This document shows, piece by piece, positions 4,999-62,689 of a stretch of DNA of 64,000 nt (position 1 is its first letter; every line of letters starts with the position of its first letter). This DNA comes from Draconibacterium orientale (GTDB lineage Bacteria > Bacteroidota > Bacteroidia > Bacteroidales > Prolixibacteraceae): contig NZ_CP007451.1 of assembly GCF_000626635.1 (NCBI RefSeq), forward strand, positions 1 through 64,000, written 5' to 3'. Under the pieces are notes generated by a model that worked only from the letters and a program-made list of their open reading frames with translations, ran no database searches and was not told where the DNA came from. The position numbers and the translations under genes are program-made.

Positions 4999-5019
4999 GT
5001 TTTCGACAGTCAATCTTTT

Positions 5020-5151
5020 GAATTGAAGCGGTTCTTTTTTGAGTTCAAGTCCTTATTTTTTGAGTTCAAGTGGTAATTTTTTGAGTTGAAGCGCTTATTT
5101 TTTGAATTGAAGCAGTTATTTTTTAAGTTGAAGTGCTTGTTTTTTTGATAC
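5020..5151. repeat. Six-unit 21-bp degenerate tandem array
   Basis: The core GARTTSAAG (or AAGTTGAAG) starts at 5020, 5041, 5062, 5083, 5104 and 5125, an exact 21-bp period. Each unit is the core, six more variable bases, then six Ts. The variable bases differ in every unit while core and T-run persist. The array fills most of the 4943-5291 gap between tRNA-Leu and the lipoprotein gene. One frame reads as a 7-residue repeat but has a stop in unit 3, so it is not coding. Confidence 0.85.
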
Positions 5152-5291
5152 AATGAGATATTTCCTCCCGGCGCTGCTCAATTTGCGGTGTGGTTCTCTA
5201 ATACTTCATGAAAAACTACTCCGGGAATTAAACTTTTGCTTTTGGTTATCATCTAAAGCGGTTGAACTTCACAATAAAAAACAAAATTGAA

Positions 5292-6551: not shown

Positions 6552-6827
6552 AAGCAAACAAACCAGAATACGATACAATTGCCAGTAGCATACTGGATAT
6601 TGGATATTCAATATTGATTATTGAACATTTTGGTAACTTGCAACTTGTAAGAAGAAAGGATGCCATCCCTAAGTTTTTCAACTTATACGGATGGCATCCT
6701 TTTTTCTCGATGTTGGATTCTGGATACTGCGAACTTGCAACCTGTAACTTGCAACTTGCAACTTGCAACTTCTTTGGAACAGATCTCTCGCTGCGCTTCG
6801 AGATGACAGCAACTGTGTCAACTGAAC
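6552..6827. repeat. Intergenic low-complexity region with heptamer array
   Basis: No gene is seen. The stretch holds TGGATATTGGATATTCAATATTG-type text split across 6594-6630, a bidirectional hairpin at 6657-6706, and six heptamer units of the form AACTTGC/AACCTGT (about 6729-6771). The text TCGCTGCGCTTCGAGATGAC near 6788 resembles the dispersed element also found in odhB and at 33.3 kb. Confidence 0.7.
6657..6706. terminator. Bidirectional terminator hairpin (GGATG family)
   Basis: AAAGGATGCCATCC pairs with GGATGGCATCCTTT over 14 bp. The plus-strand side ends in six Ts. It lies downstream of the minus-strand odhB and probably terminates it. The stem resembles the hairpin split by the IS element at 33.7/35.2 kb. 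Confidence 0.75.
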
Positions 6828-33203: not shown

Positions 33204-33763
33204 CAACTGATAATTAACAGTGATACATTTTCGTTTTTAATTTATCCCGGCATTTTGTCGGGATTTTTTTTGTCTGGATACCCCGACGTTTCCGGTCGGG
33301 ATTTCGCTTCGCTCAACTGGATACTGGATGCTGGAATCTCGATACTCGCTGCTCAACCCACGAATCACTTTTGCCTTGCGAAGGATTAAAAGAAGAAATG
33401 CTTAAATGCTTTATTGCGATAATGCTTAAATGAGAACTCGCAGTTCGGATAATCGAGAAATTGAAAAAGGATATCGGATGCTGGATACCAGATGCTATAG
33501 AATTGTTTGATTGTTTTGTTTAAACGCTCCAAGTTTTTTTTGTGCTGCCATATAACCTTATTCCCTCCTCAGAAAACCTTAGTAGCCATCATTGTTCCCC
33601 CTGCAATAACCTTATAAACCTTATTTTTTGTAGAGTCTTTGGATATTGGGTATTGAACATTCAATATTGGGTATTGAACATTCAATATTGGATATTGATT
33701 TCTGGATACTCAATCCTCGCAGCTCGGATAATTGAAAAAGGATGTCATCTTTACATTTTTAAA
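33204..33763. repeat. Intergenic repeat-rich region between ahpF and the IS element
   Basis: No gene is supported. It contains a terminator (33244-33271), a copy of the dispersed element also found in odhB (33275-33345), an ATGCNNNA octamer array with the GAACTCGC tail (33398-33445), two 21-bp units of ATTGAACATTCAAT text (33652 and 33673), and the left arm of a hairpin split by the IS. A small ORF at 33542-33769 is low complexity and rejected. Confidence 0.75.
33244..33271 (+). terminator. Intrinsic terminator after ahpF
   Basis: ATCCCG (33244-33249) pairs with CGGGAT (33259-33264), followed by eight Ts. Confidence 0.8.
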
Positions 33764-35166
33764 CATTAGTGTCCGGTAAAAATTTACCGGGCAGTACATT
33801 TTAAAGAACCACCCGGTATGTCTACTTTTGAGTTACCACACCAAAAAGTTAGACATGGGTAAAAATACAATTTTTAGCGGACAGCCTATATTTAATCAGC
33901 TGTTAACGTTCATTGACAAGAGTGAGATTAGAAAAATAGCGAAGAAACACGGCAGTGAGTACTATGTCAAGAAGTTTACTACTTATAATCACTTAGTAGT
34001 TATGCTCTTCGTAGTCTTTGAAGGATATCATTCCATCAGGGAGGTTATTCTTGGTTTACTTGCCAATGCCCACAAACTGTCCCATTTAGGTTTAAGTTAT
34101 CTGGTACGGCGCAGCACTTTTTCAGAAGCTAATAAACGTAGGAGCAGCAAGGTGTTCGAGGATATTTATATGACCGTTTACCAAAAGCATTCTCGTTTTT
34201 TAGCGGACAGCCGGTTAACAGACAAGGATTTGAAACGACTTTATATCATGGATTCATCTACCATATCCTTGTTTAAGGACATTTTAAAAGGAGTTGGTCG
34301 TAATCCAAAGAGTGGTAAAAAGAAAGGCGGAATTAAAGCCCATACAATTATCAAAGCCAGTGAAAATGTTCCATGTTTAGTTCGGTACAGCGAAGCAGCC
34401 AGACACGACCATATGTTTCTACAAGAAGTGGAAGCTTTGCCATCAGGATCGATTATAACTTTTGACAAAGGCTATGTTGATTATGCGCAATATGAAACTT
34501 TTTCAGAAAAGTCGATTTGGTATGTAACCCGATTGAAAGAGAATGCATTTTATACAGCCGGGAAAGAGTTTGATATACCAGACGACACAGATTTTGGTGT
34601 CCTAAAAGATGAAGAAGTGGTGCTTCTGTATGGAGATAATAAAACGCAAGAACACAAGGCTCGTAGAATTGCTTATTGGGATAATGAAAACCAACGTTTA
34701 TTTGAGTTTATAACCAATAACTTTGAACTAGCTGCCGAAAAGATAGCTTGGATTTACAAAAAACGTTGGCAAATAGAACTGCTTTTCAAACAGCTAAAAC
34801 AGAACTTCCCATTAAAATATTTTCTTGGTGACAATGAGAACGCCATTGAGATACAGATATGGGCAGCTATGCTTGCCAACTTGCTAATTACTTTGGTAAA
34901 GAGCAAACTCAAGAGAAAGTGGGCATTCTCGAATATGGTGTCCATTATAAGACAGCAATTAATGAACTACATCAACATATATGCCTTCCTGGAAAACCCA
35001 GAGAAAAGCTGGCTCATATTGATAAAGCAAGACAAATACAAATACCAACATTCGCTATTCCCAGAAGTACAGGGGGCTTACTTTTGAAAAATAAAAATAC
35101 CTGACTTGAATATCAAGAAGTTAGAGATATGAATTTAAACTAGATCCGGTTTCCCGGACAACAATG
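33764..35166. mobile_element. IS4-family insertion sequence (complete)
   Basis: The element is about 1403 bp. Its terminal repeats read CATTAGTGTCCGGTAAA and, on the other end inverted, CATTGTTGTCCGGGAAA (14 of 17 matching). A 9-bp direct repeat ATTTTTAAA flanks it at 33755-33763 and 35167-35175 as a target duplication. It contains one intact transposase. The flanking host DNA forms a 16-bp inverted repeat (33738-33753 and 35180-35195), so the element entered the loop of a hairpin. Confidence 0.88.
33855..35087 (+). CDS. IS4-family transposase (DUF4372-type N-terminus)
   Basis: The 410-residue protein has the DUF4372-like start MGKNTIFSGQPIFNQLLTF and DDE-type catalytic motifs: Asp in YIMDSSTISLF, Asp in ITFDKGYVDY, and Glu in the YKKRWQIELLFK motif, which matches the Y-(2)-R-(3)-E-(6)-K signature of IS4. 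No internal stop or frameshift is present, so it looks functional. The ATG at 33855 is chosen; an earlier in-frame TTG is unlikely. Confidence 0.95.
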   Translation: MGKNTIFSGQPIFNQLLTFIDKSEIRKIAKKHGSEYYVKKFTTYNHLVVMLFVVFEGYHSIREVILGLLANAHKLSHLGLSYLVRRSTFSEANKRRSSKVFEDIYMTVYQKHSRFLADSRLTDKDLKRLYIMDSSTISLFKDILKGVGRNPKSGKKKGGIKAHTIIKASENVPCLVRYSEAARHDHMFLQEVEALPSGSIITFDKGYVDYAQYETFSEKSIWYVTRLKENAFYTAGKEFDIPDDTDFGVLKDEEVVLLYGDNKTQEHKARRIAYWDNENQRLFEFITNNFELAAEKIAWIYKKRWQIELLFKQLKQNFPLKYFLGDNENAIEIQIWAAMLANLLITLVKSKLKRKWAFSNMVSIIRQQLMNYINIYAFLENPEKSWLILIKQDKYKYQHSLFPEVQGAYF

Positions 35167-38797: not shown

Positions 38798-40045
38798 TTA
38801 TAGCTCGCCAAGCACCATTCGCCGCAGCAATTGCAGCGCCGTTTGTCCCGAGCGCACAATATTCCGGTCGCGCTGATCGCCAATAAAAGTGTACTTTTTC
38901 ACTAGCGTTTTCTCCGGCCCCGAAACAGCAATCCAGACTGTTCCCACCGGCTTTTCTTCTGTTCCTCCTGTAGGACCTGCAATTCCGGTGGTTGCTACCG
39001 CATAGTCTGCTTTCATCACACGCTTTACACCTTCTACCATTTCGCGTGCCACCTGTTCGCTTACCGCACCGTATTTTTCCAGATTTTCGCGGCTAACGCC
39101 CAGCAACTTTTCCTTTATTTCGTTGGAGTACGAGGTTACCGAACCGTTGTAGTAGGCCGAACTTCCGGAAACAGAAGTGATAAGATGCGAAATATAACCG
39201 CCGGTGCAACTTTCGGCAACAGCCAGTTTTTTGTTTTGCTTCACCAATTCCCTACCAATTACTTCCGACATGGTTTCGGTATCGTAACCAAAAATGGCCT
39301 CCGGAATTATCTTTTGTAGCTTTTCAATTTCACTCTCCACCTCGCTTTTCAACACCTGAACACGATCTCCAATTGCGGAAAGCCGCAGCCTCACGGCCAT
39401 TGGATTGGGTAAATACGCCAGTTTAATGTGCGCAGGTAAAGCTTCTTCCCAGGCCGCAATTCGTTCGGCCAGCATCGACTCCGGAACGCCTTGCGTTAAT
39501 ACGGTTTTATGAAAAATTGCCTTTGTTCGTTTGGTTTGGCGAAGGCGTGGCAGCAGCTCAAACTCTACCAGGTATTTCATTTCAAAAGGCACGCCCGGCA
39601 TCGACACAAAAATGGTGTCGTTTTTCTCAAACCACATGCCCGGAGCTGTTCCCATTTTATTAGGTAAAATAGTGCACGATTCAGGTAACATTGCCTGATC
39701 GCGGTTCAGTTTATTCATGTCAACGCCCCGGTGTTTAAAGCGCTCGGTTATAGCATTGAGCGTTGGCTCATGAAAAACCAGTTTGGTATTGAAATACTCG
39801 CAAAGTGTGTGTTTGGTTATGTCGTCTTTTGTTGGGCCAAGGCCACCGGTAATCACCACCAGGTCGGCATGCGCTTCTGCATTTTTTATGGCACGCATAA
39901 TATGATCGTGATCGTCGTGAACCGAAGTAATCTGGTAAATTTCAATACCGTTCAGGTTAAACTGCTCGCCCATCCAGGCCGAGTTGGTATCCACAATTTG
40001 TCCTATCAGTATTTCATCTCCTATGGTAATAATTTCTGCTTTCAT
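38798..40045 (-). CDS. cinA: CinA family nicotinamide-nucleotide amidase / competence-damage protein
   Basis: The 415-residue protein has two domains. The N-terminal MoaB/MogA-like domain (ITIGDEILIGQIVDTNSAWMG at the start, VVITGGLGPTKDD near 62) hydrolyses ADP-ribose-type or FAD substrates in relatives. The C-terminal PncC domain (AVAESCTGGYISHLIT near 279, ATTGIAGPTGG near 355) removes the amide of nicotinamide mononucleotide. The combination and length match full CinA, which recycles pyridine nucleotides. Confidence 0.95.
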   Translation of the reverse strand: MKAEIITIGDEILIGQIVDTNSAWMGEQFNLNGIEIYQITSVHDDHDHIMRAIKNAEAHADLVVITGGLGPTKDDITKHTLCEYFNTKLVFHEPTLNAITERFKHRGVDMNKLNRDQAMLPESCTILPNKMGTAPGMWFEKNDTIFVSMPGVPFEMKYLVEFELLPRLRQTKRTKAIFHKTVLTQGVPESMLAERIAAWEEALPAHIKLAYLPNPMAVRLRLSAIGDRVQVLKSEVESEIEKLQKIIPEAIFGYDTETMSEVIGRELVKQNKKLAVAESCTGGYISHLITSVSGSSAYYNGSVTSYSNEIKEKLLGVSRENLEKYGAVSEQVAREMVEGVKRVMKADYAVATTGIAGPTGGTEEKPVGTVWIAVSGPEKTLVKKYTFIGDQRDRNIVRSGQTALQLLRRMVLGEL

Positions 40046-40406: not shown

Positions 40407-40754
40407 CTAAAGGTTCACCACCTTTTCCGCCACTTTCTGAAAATGCATAATGTCAACCATTGTTGCTGTTATACCTACTTCAACTTTTTCAAGCAATTGA
40501 AAATGGTTTAGACAAGTTTTGCAAGCCACCAGTTTTACGCCTTTTTCCGCGAGCAGCTTTAAAGGCTCAAGTGCTTCAGAACCGGAGCAGATAAGTTTTA
40601 CACCTTCATTGTAAAAGGTAATCACTTGAGGAACTTCTGTTTCTTCGCAAAGCAATGTCAGGTAGTTTTTTGCCAGTAGCTGTCCCAGTTCTTCATTGCC
40701 TGATCCCATTCCGTTCTGCGTGATTTGAATGAGTGTATTTTTGAAAGAATTCAT
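40407..40754 (-). CDS. DsrE/YedF C-terminal-like protein (sulfur/selenium related)
   Basis: The 115-residue protein matches the DsrE-like C-terminal domain of YedF, often encoded next to selD. It has NGMGSGNEELGQLLAKNYL, LICSGSEALEPLKLLAEKGV, and the conserved cysteine pair Cys78-Lys-Thr-Cys81 in LVACKTCLNHFQL. The YedF N-terminal TusA domain is missing. It is 4.5 kb from mnmH-selD. A role in persulfide or selenide handling is inferred. The start at 40754 is chosen; an upstream in-frame start adds eight residues. Confidence 0.8.
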   Translation of the reverse strand: MNSFKNTLIQITQNGMGSGNEELGQLLAKNYLTLLCEETEVPQVITFYNEGVKLICSGSEALEPLKLLAEKGVKLVACKTCLNHFQLLEKVEVGITATMVDIMHFQKVAEKVVNL

Positions 40755-40810
40755 TTGAATTTTGTTTTGTTTGCACAAAAGTAAATGAAAAATTATTCCA
40801 ATGAAATAAA

Positions 40811-41100
40811 TTGGCTTTATTGCAAACTTCTACTTTTCTGCTTTGTGAAACTTGGAGGTTCAATCTTGAATGCGGAAATGCTTTAATGCGTAAATGCTAC
40901 AATGCGCAAATGCTGCAATGCTTTAATAGGCAGGAACTTTGCGCAACTCCGTGGCTCCTTGGTGAAACTTGGTGGTTAAGTTTTCAAATGCTTTAATGCG
41001 GAAATGCTTTAATGCTGCAATGCTATAATGCTTTAATAAATTTTCGAGGCAATCTCCGAGAGAAACATGAACCTTTATCTTCGCGTCTTAGCGCCTTTGC
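40811..41100. repeat. ATGCNNNA octamer arrays and linked phrases
   Basis: At 40870-40927 seven consecutive 8-base units read ATGCGGAA, ATGCTTTA, ATGCGTAA, ATGCTACA, ATGCGCAA, ATGCTGCA, ATGCTTTA. A second set of six starts at 40988. Between them lies CTTGGTGAAACTTGGTGG-type text and afterwards CTTCGCGTCTTAGCGCCTTT. No gene is present. Confidence 0.8.
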
Positions 41101-41113
41101 GAGAATTTTCGTC

Positions 41114-42352
41114 CTACTTCTCGAACGATTTTAGAAACGCCAGGCGCTGCAATAAAGTTGGGTGTGAATAATGAAAAAACACAAAGGTTTTATGTGGTGT
41201 TAAATTACTCAGGTTATTGATCGACAGCTTCTTTAATGCCGATGCCAGCGCTTCCGGCTTATAATTCTCGGCAGCAAAACGGTCGGCCTGATACTCGTTT
41301 TTCCGCGAAAGCATATTCATAAAAATGCCGGTAAAAAACGAAATAGGCGAATACAACACCCCAAAAGCCACCATGCCGATGTGAAAATTTGGCTCTTCAA
41401 CTCCCAAAGCTGCACTTAAAACCGGGCTGTCGATGAGCAAACCAAAAACAAACAAAACAATGGCCGTTTGTACCAATCCGATCAACAGCCCCTGCACCAC
41501 GTGTTTCTTTTTATTGTGGCCAATTTCGTGGGCCAAAACCGCTACCAGCTCTTCAGTTTCCAAATCGTTAATCAAGGTATCGTAAAGCACGATTCGTTTT
41601 TTAGCGCCCAAACCGGTAAAATAAGCATTGGCTTTTGTCGAGCGTTTCGATCCGTCGATCACAAAAATATTATCCAGTTTAAATCCCACTTTATGCGCAA
41701 AAGCACTGATGGCATCGCGCAACTCGCCTTCTTCAAGCGGCGTTTGTTTGTTAAACAGCGGCACAATGAGGTTCGAATAAAACATGGCCATAAAAATGGA
41801 AAATGCCGAAACTACAAGCCAGGCATACACCCAAAACATATTTCCGGTGAGCTGATAAATAAAAATTACCAGTGCCAGTAAACCACCTCCTATAACAGCA
41901 CTTACCAACCATCCTTTTACCTTATCAAGAACAAATATTTTTGGTGTGGTTTTGTTAAAACCGTATTTCTCCTCGATTTTAAAAGTGTCGTAAATTTCAA
42001 AAGGAGTGCCTATAATATCGGACGCGAACATTATAATTCCAAAGAAAATAAGCGCTGCCAGAATTGCATTTCCGGTAAAACTCCACGCCCAGCCATCAAC
42101 CAGGGCAAAGCCATACAACAAAAACATAGCCAGTGTAATTACCATACTAAAACTGCTGGTTAATATTCCGAAGCGATGATTTTCGCGCTGATAAGCCTGC
42201 TGCTTTTTGTATTTCTCTTCGTCGTAAATTCCCTTTACCTCTTCGGGAATGGTGTCGCTCATGGTCGTGGTATTCAGGTACGACAGGTATTTCTCGAAAA
42301 TAAAATCAACAACAAGAATTCCGATAATGATCCAGAAAAGTATTTCGTGCAT
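41114..42352 (-). CDS. M48 family Ste24-type metalloendopeptidase
   Basis: The 412-residue integral membrane protease has about six to seven membrane helices and the zinc-binding motif HEIGH (His275, Glu276, His279) in AVLAHEIGHNKKKH. A downstream NEYQADRFA supplies the third zinc ligand Glu. The KRSTKANAYFTGLG stretch just before is typical of Ste24/CAAX-protease-type enzymes, which in bacteria act in membrane protein quality control. Catalytic residues are complete. Confidence 0.93.
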   Translation of the reverse strand: MHEILFWIIIGILVVDFIFEKYLSYLNTTTMSDTIPEEVKGIYDEEKYKKQQAYQRENHRFGILTSSFSMVITLAMFLLYGFALVDGWAWSFTGNAILAALIFFGIIMFASDIIGTPFEIYDTFKIEEKYGFNKTTPKIFVLDKVKGWLVSAVIGGGLLALVIFIYQLTGNMFWVYAWLVVSAFSIFMAMFYSNLIVPLFNKQTPLEEGELRDAISAFAHKVGFKLDNIFVIDGSKRSTKANAYFTGLGAKKRIVLYDTLINDLETEELVAVLAHEIGHNKKKHVVQGLLIGLVQTAIVLFVFGLLIDSPVLSAALGVEEPNFHIGMVAFGVLYSPISFFTGIFMNMLSRKNEYQADRFAAENYKPEALASALKKLSINNLSNLTPHKTFVFFHYSHPTLLQRLAFLKSFEK

Positions 42353-42821
42353 AGCTGCTTTGTTTCAATTTGTGAGGCACAAATATAACAGAAGATTAAG
42401 AGTTTCCGAAACAGGCTCGGCCTTACCTATTTCTCTTAAATAGCCCCTCCTGCGCCCTTATCTCTAATCCTGTTAACTTTTTAGGCGCCCTGTTACACTT
42501 TTAGGCGTCCCTGTTGTTTTTTTAGTGTCCCTGTTACATTTTTACCCGCCCTGTTAACTTTTTTGCTCGTCCTGTACTCTTTTTTCCCGTCCTGTTCAAC
42601 AGGGAAGGCCAAAAACCCGACAGGGAGGGTGAACAACCTACAGGGAGGCCCAAAACCCAACAGGGCGCTATATTTCAACAAGTTACACAAGGCGCTCCAC
42701 AAAATTCCTAAATTTCAGAAATACCTGAAATGGGGCAGCACTTATTTAAATAACTGTTGTGCAGATATTGAGCAACTTTATGTTTTTTTTCCCATTTTTG
42801 CAGCGTTACAATAGGTAAACT
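42353..42821. repeat. Inverted, helically phased ~20.3-bp array
   Basis: CCTG cores start at 42469, 42489, 42510, 42530, 42550, 42571 and 42591. CAGG cores follow in inverse sense at 42600, 42621, 42641 and 42661. The spacing alternates 20 and 21 bases throughout. The forward units include a T-run and the inverse units an A-run. The remaining DNA (42670-42821) is AT-rich, leading into the M20 gene. No coding gene is seen. Confidence 0.8.
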
Positions 42822-43868
42822 ATGGAGAAATACATCGAGCTGTTAAAAACGCTGATCGCTACGCAGTCGTTTAGTAAAGAGGAGGAAAATGCGGCCGCCG
42901 TTATGCGTGCTTTTTTGGAAAAAGAAGGTATTCCGTTTAAAACAAAAGAGAACAACACCTGGGCCTTCAATAAATATTACTCGGACGAAAAGCCAACCAT
43001 TTTACTCGACTCGCATATCGATACGGTTCGTCCGGCAAAAGGCTACACTAAAGATCCGTTTTCGCCCATTGAAGAAGGCGATGTATTGTACGGACTGGGA
43101 AGCAACGACGCCGGTGGCCCACTGGTTTCGCTTCTGGCAACTTTTATTCATTTTTACGAACGCGAAGACCTGCCCTACAACCTTGTTTATGCGGCAACTG
43201 CCGAAGAGGAAATTTCGGGCCGGCGCGGAATGGAGATCGTTCTGCCTGAGATTAGCCCCATAACTTTTGCCATAATTGGCGAACCCACCCAAATGGAACT
43301 CGCCATTGCAGAAAAAGGCTTATTGGTGCTGGACTGTTACGCCCATGGAAAATCAGGGCATGCGGCCCGCGAGGAAGGCGAAAATGCCTTATACAAAGCA
43401 ATGGATGACATTGAAAAGCTGCGTAATTTCGAGTTCGATAAGGTTTCGGAAGTACTCGGAAAAGTAAAACTTTCGGTTACCCAAATAGAGGCCGGAACAC
43501 AACACAACGTTGTTCCCGATATTTGCCATTTTGTGGTTGATGTGCGCACCAACGAACACTACACCAACAAACAAGCCGCCGAAATTATCAACCAATTGAT
43601 TGATTCGAAAGTTAAGCCACGTAGCGTTCGATTAAACTCATCGGGCATTTCGGCACATCATCCGTTTGCAAAATTGGTTAAGGAAAAAGGCATAAATATT
43701 TACGGCTCGCCAACCACCTCCGATCAGGCCATTATTCCTTTCCTATCTGTAAAAATGGGACCGGGCGATTCGGCACGTTCGCACACCGCAGACGAATACA
43801 TTCACAAAAGCGAAATTATTGCAGGAATTGAACGCTACATCGAGCTACTGGAAGAACTAAAGCTGTAA
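42822..43868 (+). CDS. M20-family metallo-hydrolase (acylornithine/acetylcitrulline deacetylase-like)
   Basis: The 348-residue protein has the M20 zinc-peptidase pattern: LLDSHIDTVRP (zinc His and catalytic-side Asp), YGLGSNDAGGP (zinc Asp), ATAEEEISGRRG (catalytic Glu pair), IIGEPTQ and a terminal RSHTADEYI His. It resembles ArgE/DapE-type enzymes and the Bacteroidota acetylcitrulline deacetylase, but no arginine-synthesis genes are adjacent, so the substrate is left open. Confidence 0.87.
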   Translation: MEKYIELLKTLIATQSFSKEEENAAAVMRAFLEKEGIPFKTKENNTWAFNKYYSDEKPTILLDSHIDTVRPAKGYTKDPFSPIEEGDVLYGLGSNDAGGPLVSLLATFIHFYEREDLPYNLVYAATAEEEISGRRGMEIVLPEISPITFAIIGEPTQMELAIAEKGLLVLDCYAHGKSGHAAREEGENALYKAMDDIEKLRNFEFDKVSEVLGKVKLSVTQIEAGTQHNVVPDICHFVVDVRTNEHYTNKQAAEIINQLIDSKVKPRSVRLNSSGISAHHPFAKLVKEKGINIYGSPTTSDQAIIPFLSVKMGPGDSARSHTADEYIHKSEIIAGIERYIELLEELKL

Positions 43869-58205: not shown

Positions 58206-59285
58206 CTGAAAAAATATTTAACGATACAATCATCAAAACTGGCTCCAACGAGATTAAGCACTCTAACTGTTCTTTTATTATTTGTACTGTTCAACGTTTC
58301 AACAAATGCACAGGAATATGCCGTTGGTGCCGACCTCTCGTTTTTAAAACAAGCCGAAGACAATGGTTTTAAGTTCAAGGAAAACGGAGAAGTGAAAAAA
58401 GGCATCGAAATATTCAAAAACCACGGATACAACTGGATACGTTTGCGGCTGTTCCACACGCCAACACAATTACCAAATAATTTGGAATACACCATTGCTA
58501 CGGCAAAAATGGCCAAAGAGCATGGTTTTAAATTTCTGCTCGACTACCATTATTCCGATACCTGGGCCGATCCTGCAAAGCAATTCATTCCCAAAGCATG
58601 GGAAGGACTTTCGCACGAAACACTGGTTGACTCGGTTTACGAATACACGCGACAAACCATGATCGCTTTTCGCGAAGCCGGAGTTTTCCCCGACATGGTG
58701 CAGGTGGGCAACGAGATAAGTAACGGAATGCTTTGGCCCGATGGCAAACTGCCCGACAACTGGGATAATCTGGCCGAACTGATACAAGCCGGAATTAATG
58801 GGTTTTATGCCAGCTGCGGCAACAATCCATGCCCGCAGATCATGATTCATATCGACAAAGGCGGCGATAAGCAATTCACCAAATACTGGTTCGATAAGCT
58901 TCTTTCGTACGGAGTGGATTTTGATGTAATGGGACAATCGTATTACCCGTGGTGGCACGGCTCCATTCTCGATTTGCGCGAAACACTAAATTTTATGGCA
59001 CGTGCCTACCAAAAAGAAATTATTGTGGTGGAAGCCGCCTACAACTTTGCCCCGGCCGAGTACATCGGTAAACCGGCACCATTTGTGGAGTCGCCCGAAG
59101 GACAACGTCAGTTTTTGGAGGAAGTTAACCGCGTGGTACTAAATGTACCGAATGGTTTGGGTGTTGGTGTTTTTTGGTGGGAACCGGCCGTGGAAAACAA
59201 AGGTTTTGGCTACCGTACTTTTTTTGATGCCGATGGAAATGTGCAACCGGTAATTGAAGTTTTTGACCGATTTACAAGGTATTGA
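58206..59285 (+). CDS. GH53 arabinogalactan endo-beta-1,4-galactanase (no ATG start)
   Basis: The enzyme cuts beta-1,4-galactan side chains of pectin outside the cell. Translation from a CTG at 58206 gives KKYLTIQSSKLAPTRLSTL, a hydrophobic signal peptide to about residue 36 (NVSTNAQ), and then the GH53 start EYAVGADLSFLKQAEDNG. Catalytic Glu170 (NEISNGMLWPDG) and Glu276 (VVEAAYNF) are present. No ATG is in frame upstream; an in-frame GTG at 58392 would cut away the signal peptide. Either a CTG start or a lost ATG. Confidence 0.8.
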   Translation: MKKYLTIQSSKLAPTRLSTLTVLLLFVLFNVSTNAQEYAVGADLSFLKQAEDNGFKFKENGEVKKGIEIFKNHGYNWIRLRLFHTPTQLPNNLEYTIATAKMAKEHGFKFLLDYHYSDTWADPAKQFIPKAWEGLSHETLVDSVYEYTRQTMIAFREAGVFPDMVQVGNEISNGMLWPDGKLPDNWDNLAELIQAGINGFYASCGNNPCPQIMIHIDKGGDKQFTKYWFDKLLSYGVDFDVMGQSYYPWWHGSILDLRETLNFMARAYQKEIIVVEAAYNFAPAEYIGKPAPFVESPEGQRQFLEEVNRVVLNVPNGLGVGVFWWEPAVENKGFGYRTFFDADGNVQPVIEVFDRFTRY

Positions 59286-59603
59286 AGGACGGAAGGAAGA
59301 AATGCGTGAATGATTTAATGCGTAAATGCTTTAATAAAAACTCGCGACTTGTAACTCGCAGCTAGAGGCTTTTTATACTTTTGCCTTTAGTCTATTGAGG
59401 GACTGAGGGATTGAGGAAGAACTTTGTGTAGCTTTGTGCTTTCTTTGTGAAACTTTGTGGTTAAGTTTTTTGAATGTTACAATGCATCAATGCAAAAATA
59501 CTTTAATAAAAACTCGCGGCATGACTAATGGCGAATGACCAATGACCAATGACCAATGACTACTTTTGCCTTTCAATTTCTACTTTTGCCTTAAAAAATA
59601 CAA
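59286..59603. repeat. Octamer and heptamer arrays, no gene
   Basis: Four ATGCNNNA-type units lie at 59302-59333 and four more at 59474-59505, each ending in ATAAAAACTCGCG-type text. A GACTGAGGGATTGAGG-type stretch lies near 59400. Heptamers of AATGACC repeat near 59535-59560, followed by TTTTGCCTTTCAATTTC-type text. No ORF is convincing. Confidence 0.78.
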
Positions 59604-60170
59604 ATGACATACATTACCGACAAAGTTTTTAAAAACCAGGATTTCTCCGAAAAAGGATTGGAACAAGCCGACTACGAAAACTGTAATTTTAACGATTGCA
59701 TTTTTTCATCGGCCAACCTTAGTAGTTACAGTTTCGAAGACTGCTCGTTTGAAAACTGCGATTTCAGCAACACAAAAATTACCAATGTTGCCTTTAAAAA
59801 TGTGAGCTTCAAAAACTGCAAACTCATCGGGCTGCAGTTCGACGAATGCAATCCTTTTTTGCTTGAATTCAGTTTTAACGGATGCATGCTGAATTACGCC
59901 TCGTTTTACCAGTTAAAAATAAAAGGCACACATTTTAACCGCTGCACCATGCACGAGGTTGATTTTAGCGAAACCGATCTTAGCAAAGCCATATTCTCGG
60001 AATGCGATTTGGCCGGAGCTATTTTTAGCCGTTCCAACCTGCAAAAGGCCGATCTGCGCAATTCGATCAACCTGGTTCTCAATCCGGAACAAAACCAGCT
60101 GGCCGGAGCTCACTTCTCGCTCGACATGCTTCCCGGACTGTTAAGTAAGTATAACATTAAGGTGGATTAA
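59604..60170 (+). CDS. Qnr-like pentapeptide-repeat protein
   Basis: The 188-residue protein is built of pentapeptide repeats (A/C-D/N-L/F-x-x), for example NCNFNDCIFSSANLSSYSFEDC and DCSFENCDFSNTKI, with a break at LEFSFNGCMLNYASFYQL and a terminal region ending GLLSKYNIKVD. Length and the two-block structure resemble Qnr proteins, which form a right-handed beta-helix and protect DNA gyrase from quinolones. Whether this copy confers resistance is unknown. Confidence 0.85.
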   Translation: MTYITDKVFKNQDFSEKGLEQADYENCNFNDCIFSSANLSSYSFEDCSFENCDFSNTKITNVAFKNVSFKNCKLIGLQFDECNPFLLEFSFNGCMLNYASFYQLKIKGTHFNRCTMHEVDFSETDLSKAIFSECDLAGAIFSRSNLQKADLRNSINLVLNPEQNQLAGAHFSLDMLPGLLSKYNIKVD

Positions 60171-60191: not shown

Positions 60192-60803
60192 ATGGATCTT
60201 TTACTTTGGTTTGACTACATCGGAACATTTGTTTTTGCAATTAGCGGCACACTGACTGCGGCCGACAAACGCCTCGACTTTTTTGGAGCAACCGTAACCG
60301 GCTTTGTTACAGCCATTGGCGGTGGTACTATGCGCGACCTTATGCTGGGCGATACCCCAGTGGCATGGATGCGAACCAACAATTATTTCTGGATGATTAT
60401 TGCGGCCGTTGTGGTAACCATCATTTTCCGCCGCCATGTAATGAGACTAAAGCGCACCCTTTTTCTTTTCGATACCATTGGAATTGCCACCTTTACCTTG
60501 CTGGGACTAAAAAAGGCTTTGCTTTTTAATATCGATCCGGCTATGGCCGTGTTGATGGGCCTGTCGACGGCAGTGGTGGGAGGCGTTATCCGCGATATTT
60601 TGTGTAACGAAGTGCCACTGATCTTTCACCGCGAGATTTATGCTACCGCCTGTATTGCCGGAGCGCTGGTGTACCTCGTGCTAAGCCGACTGGGCGTTTC
60701 AGAAGTGATTTGCGAAACAGCAACCGTATCGTCCATTATCGCTATTCGGATACTGGCCATTCGATTTAATATTGCACTGCCCCGGTTGACGCATACGGAT
60801 TGA
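60192..60803 (+). CDS. TRIC/YicG-type (UPF0126) membrane channel protein
   Basis: The 203-residue protein has about seven membrane segments and two repeats of the family motif: GGGTMRDLMLGDTPVAWM near 48-65 and GGVIRDILCNEVPLIF near 133-148. Homologues form trimeric cation channels or transport glycine-type solutes; the substrate here is unknown. The start at 60192 is chosen; an upstream TTG start is unlikely. Confidence 0.9.
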   Translation: MDLLLWFDYIGTFVFAISGTLTAADKRLDFFGATVTGFVTAIGGGTMRDLMLGDTPVAWMRTNNYFWMIIAAVVVTIIFRRHVMRLKRTLFLFDTIGIATFTLLGLKKALLFNIDPAMAVLMGLSTAVVGGVIRDILCNEVPLIFHREIYATACIAGALVYLVLSRLGVSEVICETATVSSIIAIRILAIRFNIALPRLTHTD

Positions 60804-61162
60804 TGGGGTGATGGACTGAAGGACTGAAGGACTGAAGGATTGAGAGATTGAGGGATTGAGGGAAGAAATGCGTGAATGCTTTAATGCTAAAATGCTTAAA
60901 TTTAAATTCGCAGCTAGTAACCAGAAGCTAGTGGCTACTTTTTACTTTATACTTTTGCCTTGCGAAGGCCTGAGGGATTGAAAGACTGATGGACTGCAGG
61001 ATTAAGGGAAGAAATGCTTAAATTCAGTGATTGTATTGCTTGAAATTGTAAAACTGATAAATTGCAAAATTGAACTTGAAGCTTGAAGCTAGCGGCTAGT
61101 AGCTTGAAAATCAAAACTTTTGACTTTCTACCTTTACCTTTTGCCTTGAACCTTGAACTCCC
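60804..61162. repeat. GAYTGARG and ATGCNNNA octamer arrays
   Basis: GACTGAAG-type octamers run from 60813 to about 60862, directly followed by ATGCNNNA octamers from 60868, then CAGCTAGTAACC-type heptamer text and CTTTTGCCTTGCGAAGG. A second, more decayed copy follows near 60961-61020, and AGCTTGAAGCTAGCGGCTAG text at 61080. No gene is seen. Confidence 0.78.
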
Positions 61163-62065: not shown

Positions 62066-62689
62066 TATTCGGCTTTTACGCTACGAAGATAGGCAATAAC
62101 CCAATGCCTTACATTATGTAAGACCTGTTTGGCTAACATCTTTTAACAGTTGAAGGACTGAGAGATTGAGGGACTGAAGGGTTGAAGGATTGAGCTGCGA
62201 ATGCTTTAATGCGGAAATGCTTTAATGCTTTAATAGTTGATCGACTTTGTGAAACTTTGTGCATCCTTTGTGAAAACTTTGTGGTTAGTGCTTAAAAAAA
62301 AGGACTGAGGGACTGAAGGATTGAGGGACTGAATGCATAAATGCTTTAATGCAATAATGCTTAAATGAGAACTCGACAACTCGCAGCAACTTTTGCCTTT
62401 TTACTTTTACTTTTACTTTGCCTTGCGAAGGATTGAAGGAAGAATGACATAAATGCTTTAATGCGATAATGACTTTAATGAGAACTCGCAACTCGCAGCA
62501 ACTTTTGCCTTTTTACTTTTACTTTGCCTTACGAAGGACTGAAAGAAGAAATGCATAAATGCTTTAATGCGATAATGCTTAAATGAGAACTCGCGGCTAG
62601 TAACTAGAGGCTAGTGGCTACTAACAGGTTTCATGAAAAAAAGACACCGATACAGATAAAACAGGTAAATTTTTCCAAGTAAGATAATG
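62066..62689. repeat. Composite module repeated in tandem
   Basis: The region has GAYTGARG octamers and ATGCNNNA octamers at 62155-62235. From 62301 to about 62605 a ~105-110-bp module is repeated three times. Each module runs octamers, ATGAGAACTCGC tail, CTCGCAGCAACTTTTGCC, TTTTTACTTTTAC text and CCTTRCGAAGG. The last ends in CTAGTAACTAGAGGCTAGTG heptamers. No gene lies here. Confidence 0.83.

Follow-up and report, generated by a model that had tools for sequence, protein, structure and literature searches.

The ATGCNNNA octamer arrays found in a 64,000-nucleotide stretch of the Draconibacterium orientale genome (hereafter the window) are best read, with about even confidence on our part, as a single module within composite repeat islands that are non-coding, dispersed in Draconibacterium and Maribellus, and changed by block copying. 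In D. orientale (G000) and ten relatives, these islands were built of several degenerate tandem words of 7-11 bp, lay between genes and were mostly inherited with their flanking genes, while their word mixture and length differed among close species. We infer that the islands would spread and change by the copying of blocks (16-bp dimers and composites of ~100-200 bp) between and within tolerant gaps, and that the copying may take place by unequal recombination or by switching of templates as the DNA is replicated. The islands probably have no dedicated function; if active at all, they might act as a substrate for local rearrangement.

The two main arrays are on the plus strand, inside the 359-bp gap between a DsrE-like gene (40407..40754, minus strand) and an M48 peptidase gene (41114..42352, minus strand). 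As the preliminary description had reported, they are exact and consist of seven and then six head-to-tail units: the first array (40870..40925) has the inner triplets GGA TTT GTA TAC GCA TGC TTT, and the second (40988..41035) has TTT GGA TTT TGC TAT TTT. Its figure of at least nine loci also held, since runs of at least two units numbered 10 on the plus strand of the window and one on the minus strand, the latter inside a gene. Further plus-strand ATGC arrays included those at 33398..33429 (one core mismatch), which shares a gap with a transposase gene, 59302..59333 (four units, one of them ATGA), 59474..59505 (four units, degenerate), 60868..60899 and 62201..62232 (four units each). The window contained 17 three-unit matches, compared with none in 100 dinucleotide shuffles; across the whole genome (5.13 Mb, one contig), 51 matches were found for the pattern and 0 for the reversed pattern. 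When up to two mismatches were allowed, the counts were 136 versus 8. The preliminary description had named a lack of enrichment and restriction to this contig as outcomes that would speak against the pattern; we found strong enrichment over shuffles and over the reversed pattern, and the pattern was present in relatives.

The units had been described as a fixed ATGC and final A around a variable triplet. The core was indeed near-uniform: across 105 distinct internal units that had strict units on both sides, 512 of 525 cells carried the core letter, and the commonest letter at the three inner positions of these units reached only 57, 62 and 46%. However, the triplet was not free, as it was rich in TTT (60/176 units) and alternating. 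In 45 distinct arrays of 54, T-starting and non-T-starting triplets alternated in 94 of 131 neighbours, compared with a shuffle mean of 73 (0/1000 shuffles as high), so that the effective period is 16 bp, that is, a dimer. Array decay was also evident from ATGATTTA, ATACTTTA and similar units.

These unit properties bear on two other readings. An ordinary replication-slippage microsatellite, of the STRR or long simple sequence repeat (LSSR) type, would account for the head-to-tail units and for the differences in unit number between orthologues. We regard this reading as very unlikely; in D. orientale and relatives, identical neighbours were depleted (9/111 versus 15.1 in shuffles, P 0.0125) and next-nearest identity was favoured (16/74 versus 9.9, P 0.0145), the uniform core is combined with a heterogeneous triplet, and homogeneous octamer arrays sit in other taxa. 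Identical neighbours were likewise rare in Saprospiraceae (1/69, P 0.0005), and Maribellus showed a like but non-significant direction (0/36, P 0.24); in the distinct arrays of the remaining genome_contigs loci, among the matches listed, 325 of 415 neighbours were identical. Single-unit slippage was rejected because of the depletion of identical neighbours, although slippage of dimers may still operate.

In the second reading, ATGC..A recurring every 8 bp (or as a 16-bp dimer) would form putative contacts for a DNA- or RNA-binding protein, with the triplet as spacer and the core under selection. We consider such a recognition array unlikely. It is supported by the fixed core beside the soft triplet and by a like mix of fixed and soft positions in the words GGAYTGAR (24 internal units) and AAYTGNNA (61). 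By reasoning, a period of 8 bp gives no consistent helical phase, which argues against it. A core far more uniform than the triplets is not predicted by drift alone, and this observation counts against the composite-island reading that we prefer.

Comparison of orthologous arrays addressed the same question. In aligned orthologous arrays, the core differed at 115 of 1185 sites and the triplet at 286 of 709, and a second comparison gave 10/165 versus 39/101. In BLAST-aligned orthologous arrays, where the pairs are directed and not independent, the core differed at 25/295 sites and the triplet at 49/177, while the four-fold-site rate would predict 61.6 triplet differences and half of this rate 51.4 core differences; this last comparison favours a recognition array. 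Taken at face value, the aligned arrays point to slow change in the core and nearly neutral change in the triplet. One pair, G002-G000 at 60803, was clearly misregistered, with 11 of 25 core sites differing. In six hand-chosen, gap-free and register-checked sets (others, such as G012 at 40045 with a deletion, were left out), 9/100 core and 10/60 triplet sites had changed (P 0.21). This non-significant difference counts against a recognition array, and selection on the core is therefore not claimed. The triplet hypervariability of aligned orthologues was not upheld in the register-checked arrays and probably reflects, for the most part, turnover of units or misregistration.

Most arrays did not stand alone. 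Among 25 arrays of at least three units found in 351 kb of D. orientale sequence (the window, L207 and another 19 stretches), 20 were judged by eye to stand in composite islands, with GGAYTGAR just 5' or with AAYTGNNA, RCTNGNR, CTTTTNC, CTTTGTG, CTTAGCG or AATGACN around them. The other five (L209, three in L214, and L215; by eye) were without the usual neighbour words. In the gap that holds both main arrays, a AACTTTGCGCAACTCCGTGGCTCCTTGGTGAAACTTGGTGGTTAA word lies between them (40935..40979, plus strand, read from sequence) and a CTTCGCGT-CTTAGCGC-CTTTGCGAG word lies at the end (41079..41103, plus strand, read by eye). By eye, a similar word was present at the latter place in G002, G003, G005, G007, G009, G013 and G045, and no such word was present at the equivalent place in G012, G024 and G046. 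A GGAYTGAR word array (60797..60863, plus strand) lies directly 5' of an ATGC array. The composite island at 62315..62594 (plus strand) is made of a ~106-bp block repeated head to tail ~2.6 times, with each copy comprising GGAYTGAR-type words, an ATGC array (62333-62364, 62453-62468 and 62551-62582, plus strand), CTCGCA-type words and TTTTGCC/TTTTAC words. Head-to-tail composites were also found in the relative G046, where four were seen by eye in one gap. Nine 20-kb stretches of the D. orientale genome taken at round-number positions contained few words (0-3 matches each), which indicates that the islands are discrete.

Upon comparison of D. orientale with the ten relatives, we found a preferred order on one strand: GGAYTGAR, then ATGCNNNA, then AAYTGNNA or RCTNGNR, and then CTTTTNC. 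For 75 arrays with at least two units, the words of seven other families lying no more than 150 bp away numbered 266 on the array strand and 0 on the opposite strand; these are array-by-bin counts over 722,223 bases of D. orientale stretches and ten relatives, in which overlapping arrays share words. The window had been read before the word patterns were drawn up, and the search treated both strands alike. Word strands (same/opposite) were 5/0 overall in four named Draconibacterium loci, and GGAYTGAR was 4/1 in six further loci of the genus. In Maribellus (seven loci, 17 arrays in all), the words were mostly on the strand opposite the array (GGAYTGAR 4/37, RCTNGNR 0/57 and AATGACN 0/8), with the exception of AAYTGNNA (3/0), which indicates that the modules were re-arranged between lineages. 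This re-orientation and the five arrays without their usual neighbours both count against the composite-island reading.

Other repeats were observed in the window. At 6727-6808, a 7-bp AACTTGC array is followed by a GATCTCTCGCTGCGCTTCGAGATGAC semi-palindrome, and the GATCTCTCGCTGCGCTTCGAGATGAC word recurs in the islands of relatives. Degenerate ~20-bp tandem repeats (CCTGTTAACTTTTT.., CAACAGGGAGGCC..) occupy 42469-42665, part of the gap before the gene at 42822, and the corresponding gap of G046 holds a different, GC-rich degenerate repeat (L183, by eye). A 21-bp degenerate tandem repeat, TTTTGAGTTGAAGCGCTTATT, is present at 5016-5163.

All 18 clusters with at least two seed hits, which cover every exact three-unit match in the genome, were intergenic, and 3/6 single-seed matches were inside genes; for this count, ORFs of at least 80 aa were called mechanically and the nine round-number stretches were left out. 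With respect to their neighbouring genes, eight clusters were antisense to both, three sense, three convergent and four divergent. A location bias had been raised for the arrays; among the 18 clusters, neither location nor orientation relative to genes followed a rule, and the lack of an orientation rule also argues against a recognition array. The window adjoins the origin, with a dnaA domain at 514-999, and array strands are mixed in the genome.

To compare orthologous gaps, the M48 peptidase gene, which had a match in 28 of 31 genus genomes, was used as the anchor, and ~40 kb around it was compared in ten relatives (only 11 kb in G009). The orthologous gaps held differing word mixtures and array lengths, or none, and gene loss and a gene inversion were also seen; in the gap 40755-41113, the ATGC array was absent in G012, G024 and G046. 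The best match was the orthologous island for 30 of 38 islands (37 had an orthologue in the set), so vertical descent dominates. For the remaining eight, the best match was at another locus, and six of these matches reached 77-91% across 75-140 bp. An array in G046 differed from that of G002/G024 by exactly two units, GTA TTT. The gap 59285-59604 contains a ~370-bp ORF, read from sequence, in five relatives and an island instead in D. orientale and G024; G012 and G046, which kept the ORF, showed no match to the upstream gene. We found no empty-site junction with a target duplication and caught no copying event in the act, and the orthologous gap at 60803 in G003, which lacks the words, could not be aligned.

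Rearrangements or length changes of at least 300 bp were found in 5/6 island gaps and 4/31 other gaps (Fisher P 0.0016), an association in which gap length and the length changes of the islands themselves are confounders. When only gene-level changes were counted (hand classification), the values were 4/6 versus 4/31 (P 0.013), with two of the four representing one inversion. Island gaps were thus more often rearranged or resized, a result that is suggestive but confounded. The gaps on both sides of the DsrE-like gene bear words, and 5 of the 10 relatives have this gene in inverted orientation. We also observed that the island gap with the DDE transposase gene (33855-35087; DUF4372 and DDE_Tnp_1) is 1242-1945 bp shorter in the nine relatives having both flanking genes.

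A miniature mobile element, with a transposase or another recombinase moving the composite in trans, would also fit two observations: a single genome has similar composites at several of its loci, and within one species group their internal order and polarity are fixed. We think this reading quite unlikely: no target duplications were seen, no inverted repeat spanned the arrays in the one gap examined (40755-41113), and the words are re-oriented in Maribellus. No transposase was tied to the islands in a comparison that covered Y1-transposase and GxxExxY loci. The ATGC word occurred at 0/12 Y1-transposase loci (~1.5 kb on each side; any other word, 1/12) and at 0/7 GxxExxY loci (CTTTGCG-type words, 3/7), and a link of this word to either gene type was rejected. 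At L160 and L161 (2.204 and 2.191 Mb of the D. orientale genome), GxxExxY (PF13366) genes are flanked by ACCGCAGAGACGCAGAG- and CTTAGCGTCTCAGCGGT-like inverted repeats with 8-9-bp units. An origin from plasmids or phages was rejected, since no plasmid or phage homologue of the 186-bp composite at 60790-60975 was found; two viral_contigs stretches carry the three-unit pattern with a TTT middle unit.

The three-unit pattern was present in 15 of 24 genus relatives, and the other 9/24, some of which are incomplete assemblies, had no match; this patchiness is a further point against a recognition array. It was also found in 1/16 genomes of other families in the order and in 10/394 other genomes sampled across the phylum, several of these being single or near-homogeneous matches. 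A four-unit scan of genome_contigs gave at least 118 stretches, mostly homogeneous octamer microsatellites from many phyla. Among the matches listed, heterogeneous arrays came mainly from Draconibacterium, Maribellus, Saprospiraceae MAGs and a few Bacteroidales, and three Saprospiraceae MAGs had several such loci. The reversed control was not always empty, as 84 matches in one genome belonged to a ATTCCGTA/ACTCCGTA octamer family; G159, from another Bacteroidota family, had 19 places with this family (L248 and others). The preliminary description knew of no described octamer version of such arrays. Octamer arrays as such proved not to be unique, whereas no account of the ATGCNNNA family was found in the full-text literature searched, which was open-access only and is thus weak evidence of absence. 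The family is a real and largely genus-level variety of intergenic short-repeat islands that is apparently undescribed.

In the Saprospiraceae MAGs, the same octamers and AATGAGTG words form long hairpins. Intergenic hairpins built from AATGAGTG and AATGCNNN octamers, very long and almost perfect, occur at L059 (425-670) and at other Saprospiraceae loci. An opposite-strand partner within 300 bp was found for 18/24 Saprospiraceae arrays (18 loci chosen among the matches listed, L068 left out), 4/14 Maribellus arrays and 1/46 arrays of the Draconibacterium set. The L059 hairpin, the only such locus folded, contains the octamer unit and gave a fold z of -8.81, which is in favour of a structured RNA, terminator or translated mini-ORF array. 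We nevertheless regard this reading as extremely unlikely. Compared with shuffles, the arrays and islands of the window showed no excess of folding (12 stretches, z from -0.99 to +2.10), the z values were -0.38 for the whole gap 40755-41113 and +0.20 for L214, no Rfam match up to E 1 was found in 40000-63000, and the low partner count in the Draconibacterium set is also against it. A mini-ORF or stop-start array, with ATG in all frames, was rejected, as in-frame stops were no closer than with redrawn triplets.

It is also conceivable, though rather improbable in our view, that the arrays are a recognition code, with constant letters at constant spacing around free triplets, whose words are common to distant Bacteroidota and are read by a putative nucleic-acid-binding or recombination factor that keeps and spreads them. 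Such a code might, with the same low probability, take in both the direct composites of Draconibacterium and Maribellus and the long hairpins of Saprospiraceae.

If this picture of the composite islands is real, some Bacteroidota would have intergenic DNA composed in part of degenerate 7-11-bp words from a small common set. Re-mixing of these words between close species would provide a tractable system for the origin and spread of short repeats and for gap rearrangement, and the octamer array with its core and soft triplet would be left unexplained by single-unit slippage.

The arrays had been likened to the STRR heptamers of cyanobacteria. The STRR heptamers of heterocystous cyanobacteria are dispersed, short tandem intergenic arrays with a period of 7 and uniform units. 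They resemble the ATGCNNNA arrays in being intergenic and present at many loci but differ in period (7 versus 8/16), unit uniformity and taxon. The likeness to intergenic heptamers is therefore apt, but the ATGCNNNA arrays mostly form composite islands with alternating units rather than stand-alone simple repeats. REP/REPIN and MITE-type elements are multi-copy, intergenic and short; REP/BIME elements with RAYT are palindromic with a linked Y1 transposase, and MITEs have terminal inverted repeats and a target-site duplication. Compared with REP/REPIN and MITE-type elements (PMC3116915, PMC3733652), the ATGCNNNA arrays have no palindrome in the genus and no Y1 transposase beside them; a palindromic form of the octamer unit was found only in the Saprospiraceae MAGs. 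The LSSR, with units of 5-11 bp (Mrazek 2007, as cited in the accessible part of MacGregor 2015, PMC4679880), share the unit-length class, but the identical neighbours predicted by slippage are not seen in the ATGCNNNA arrays.

The accessible part of MacGregor 2015 (PMC4679880) describes arrays of TAACTGA from Beggiatoaceae, Cyanobacteria and five Bacteroidetes that are in some places interspersed with further heptamers. It also reports unit-sized indels between two Cyanothece strains and suggests that some heptamer arrays play a role in rearrangement. As described there, these repeats are similar to the ATGCNNNA arrays in being short direct repeats that are intergenic, patchy among close relatives, present in Bacteroidetes and subject to word mixing. 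In contrast, their unit is invariant and 7 bp long, while the ATGCNNNA unit has 8 bp, a soft triplet and alternating forms. In the same text, TAACTGA in a Beggiatoaceae genome is mostly located just upstream of start codons, whereas the ATGCNNNA arrays follow no start-codon rule.
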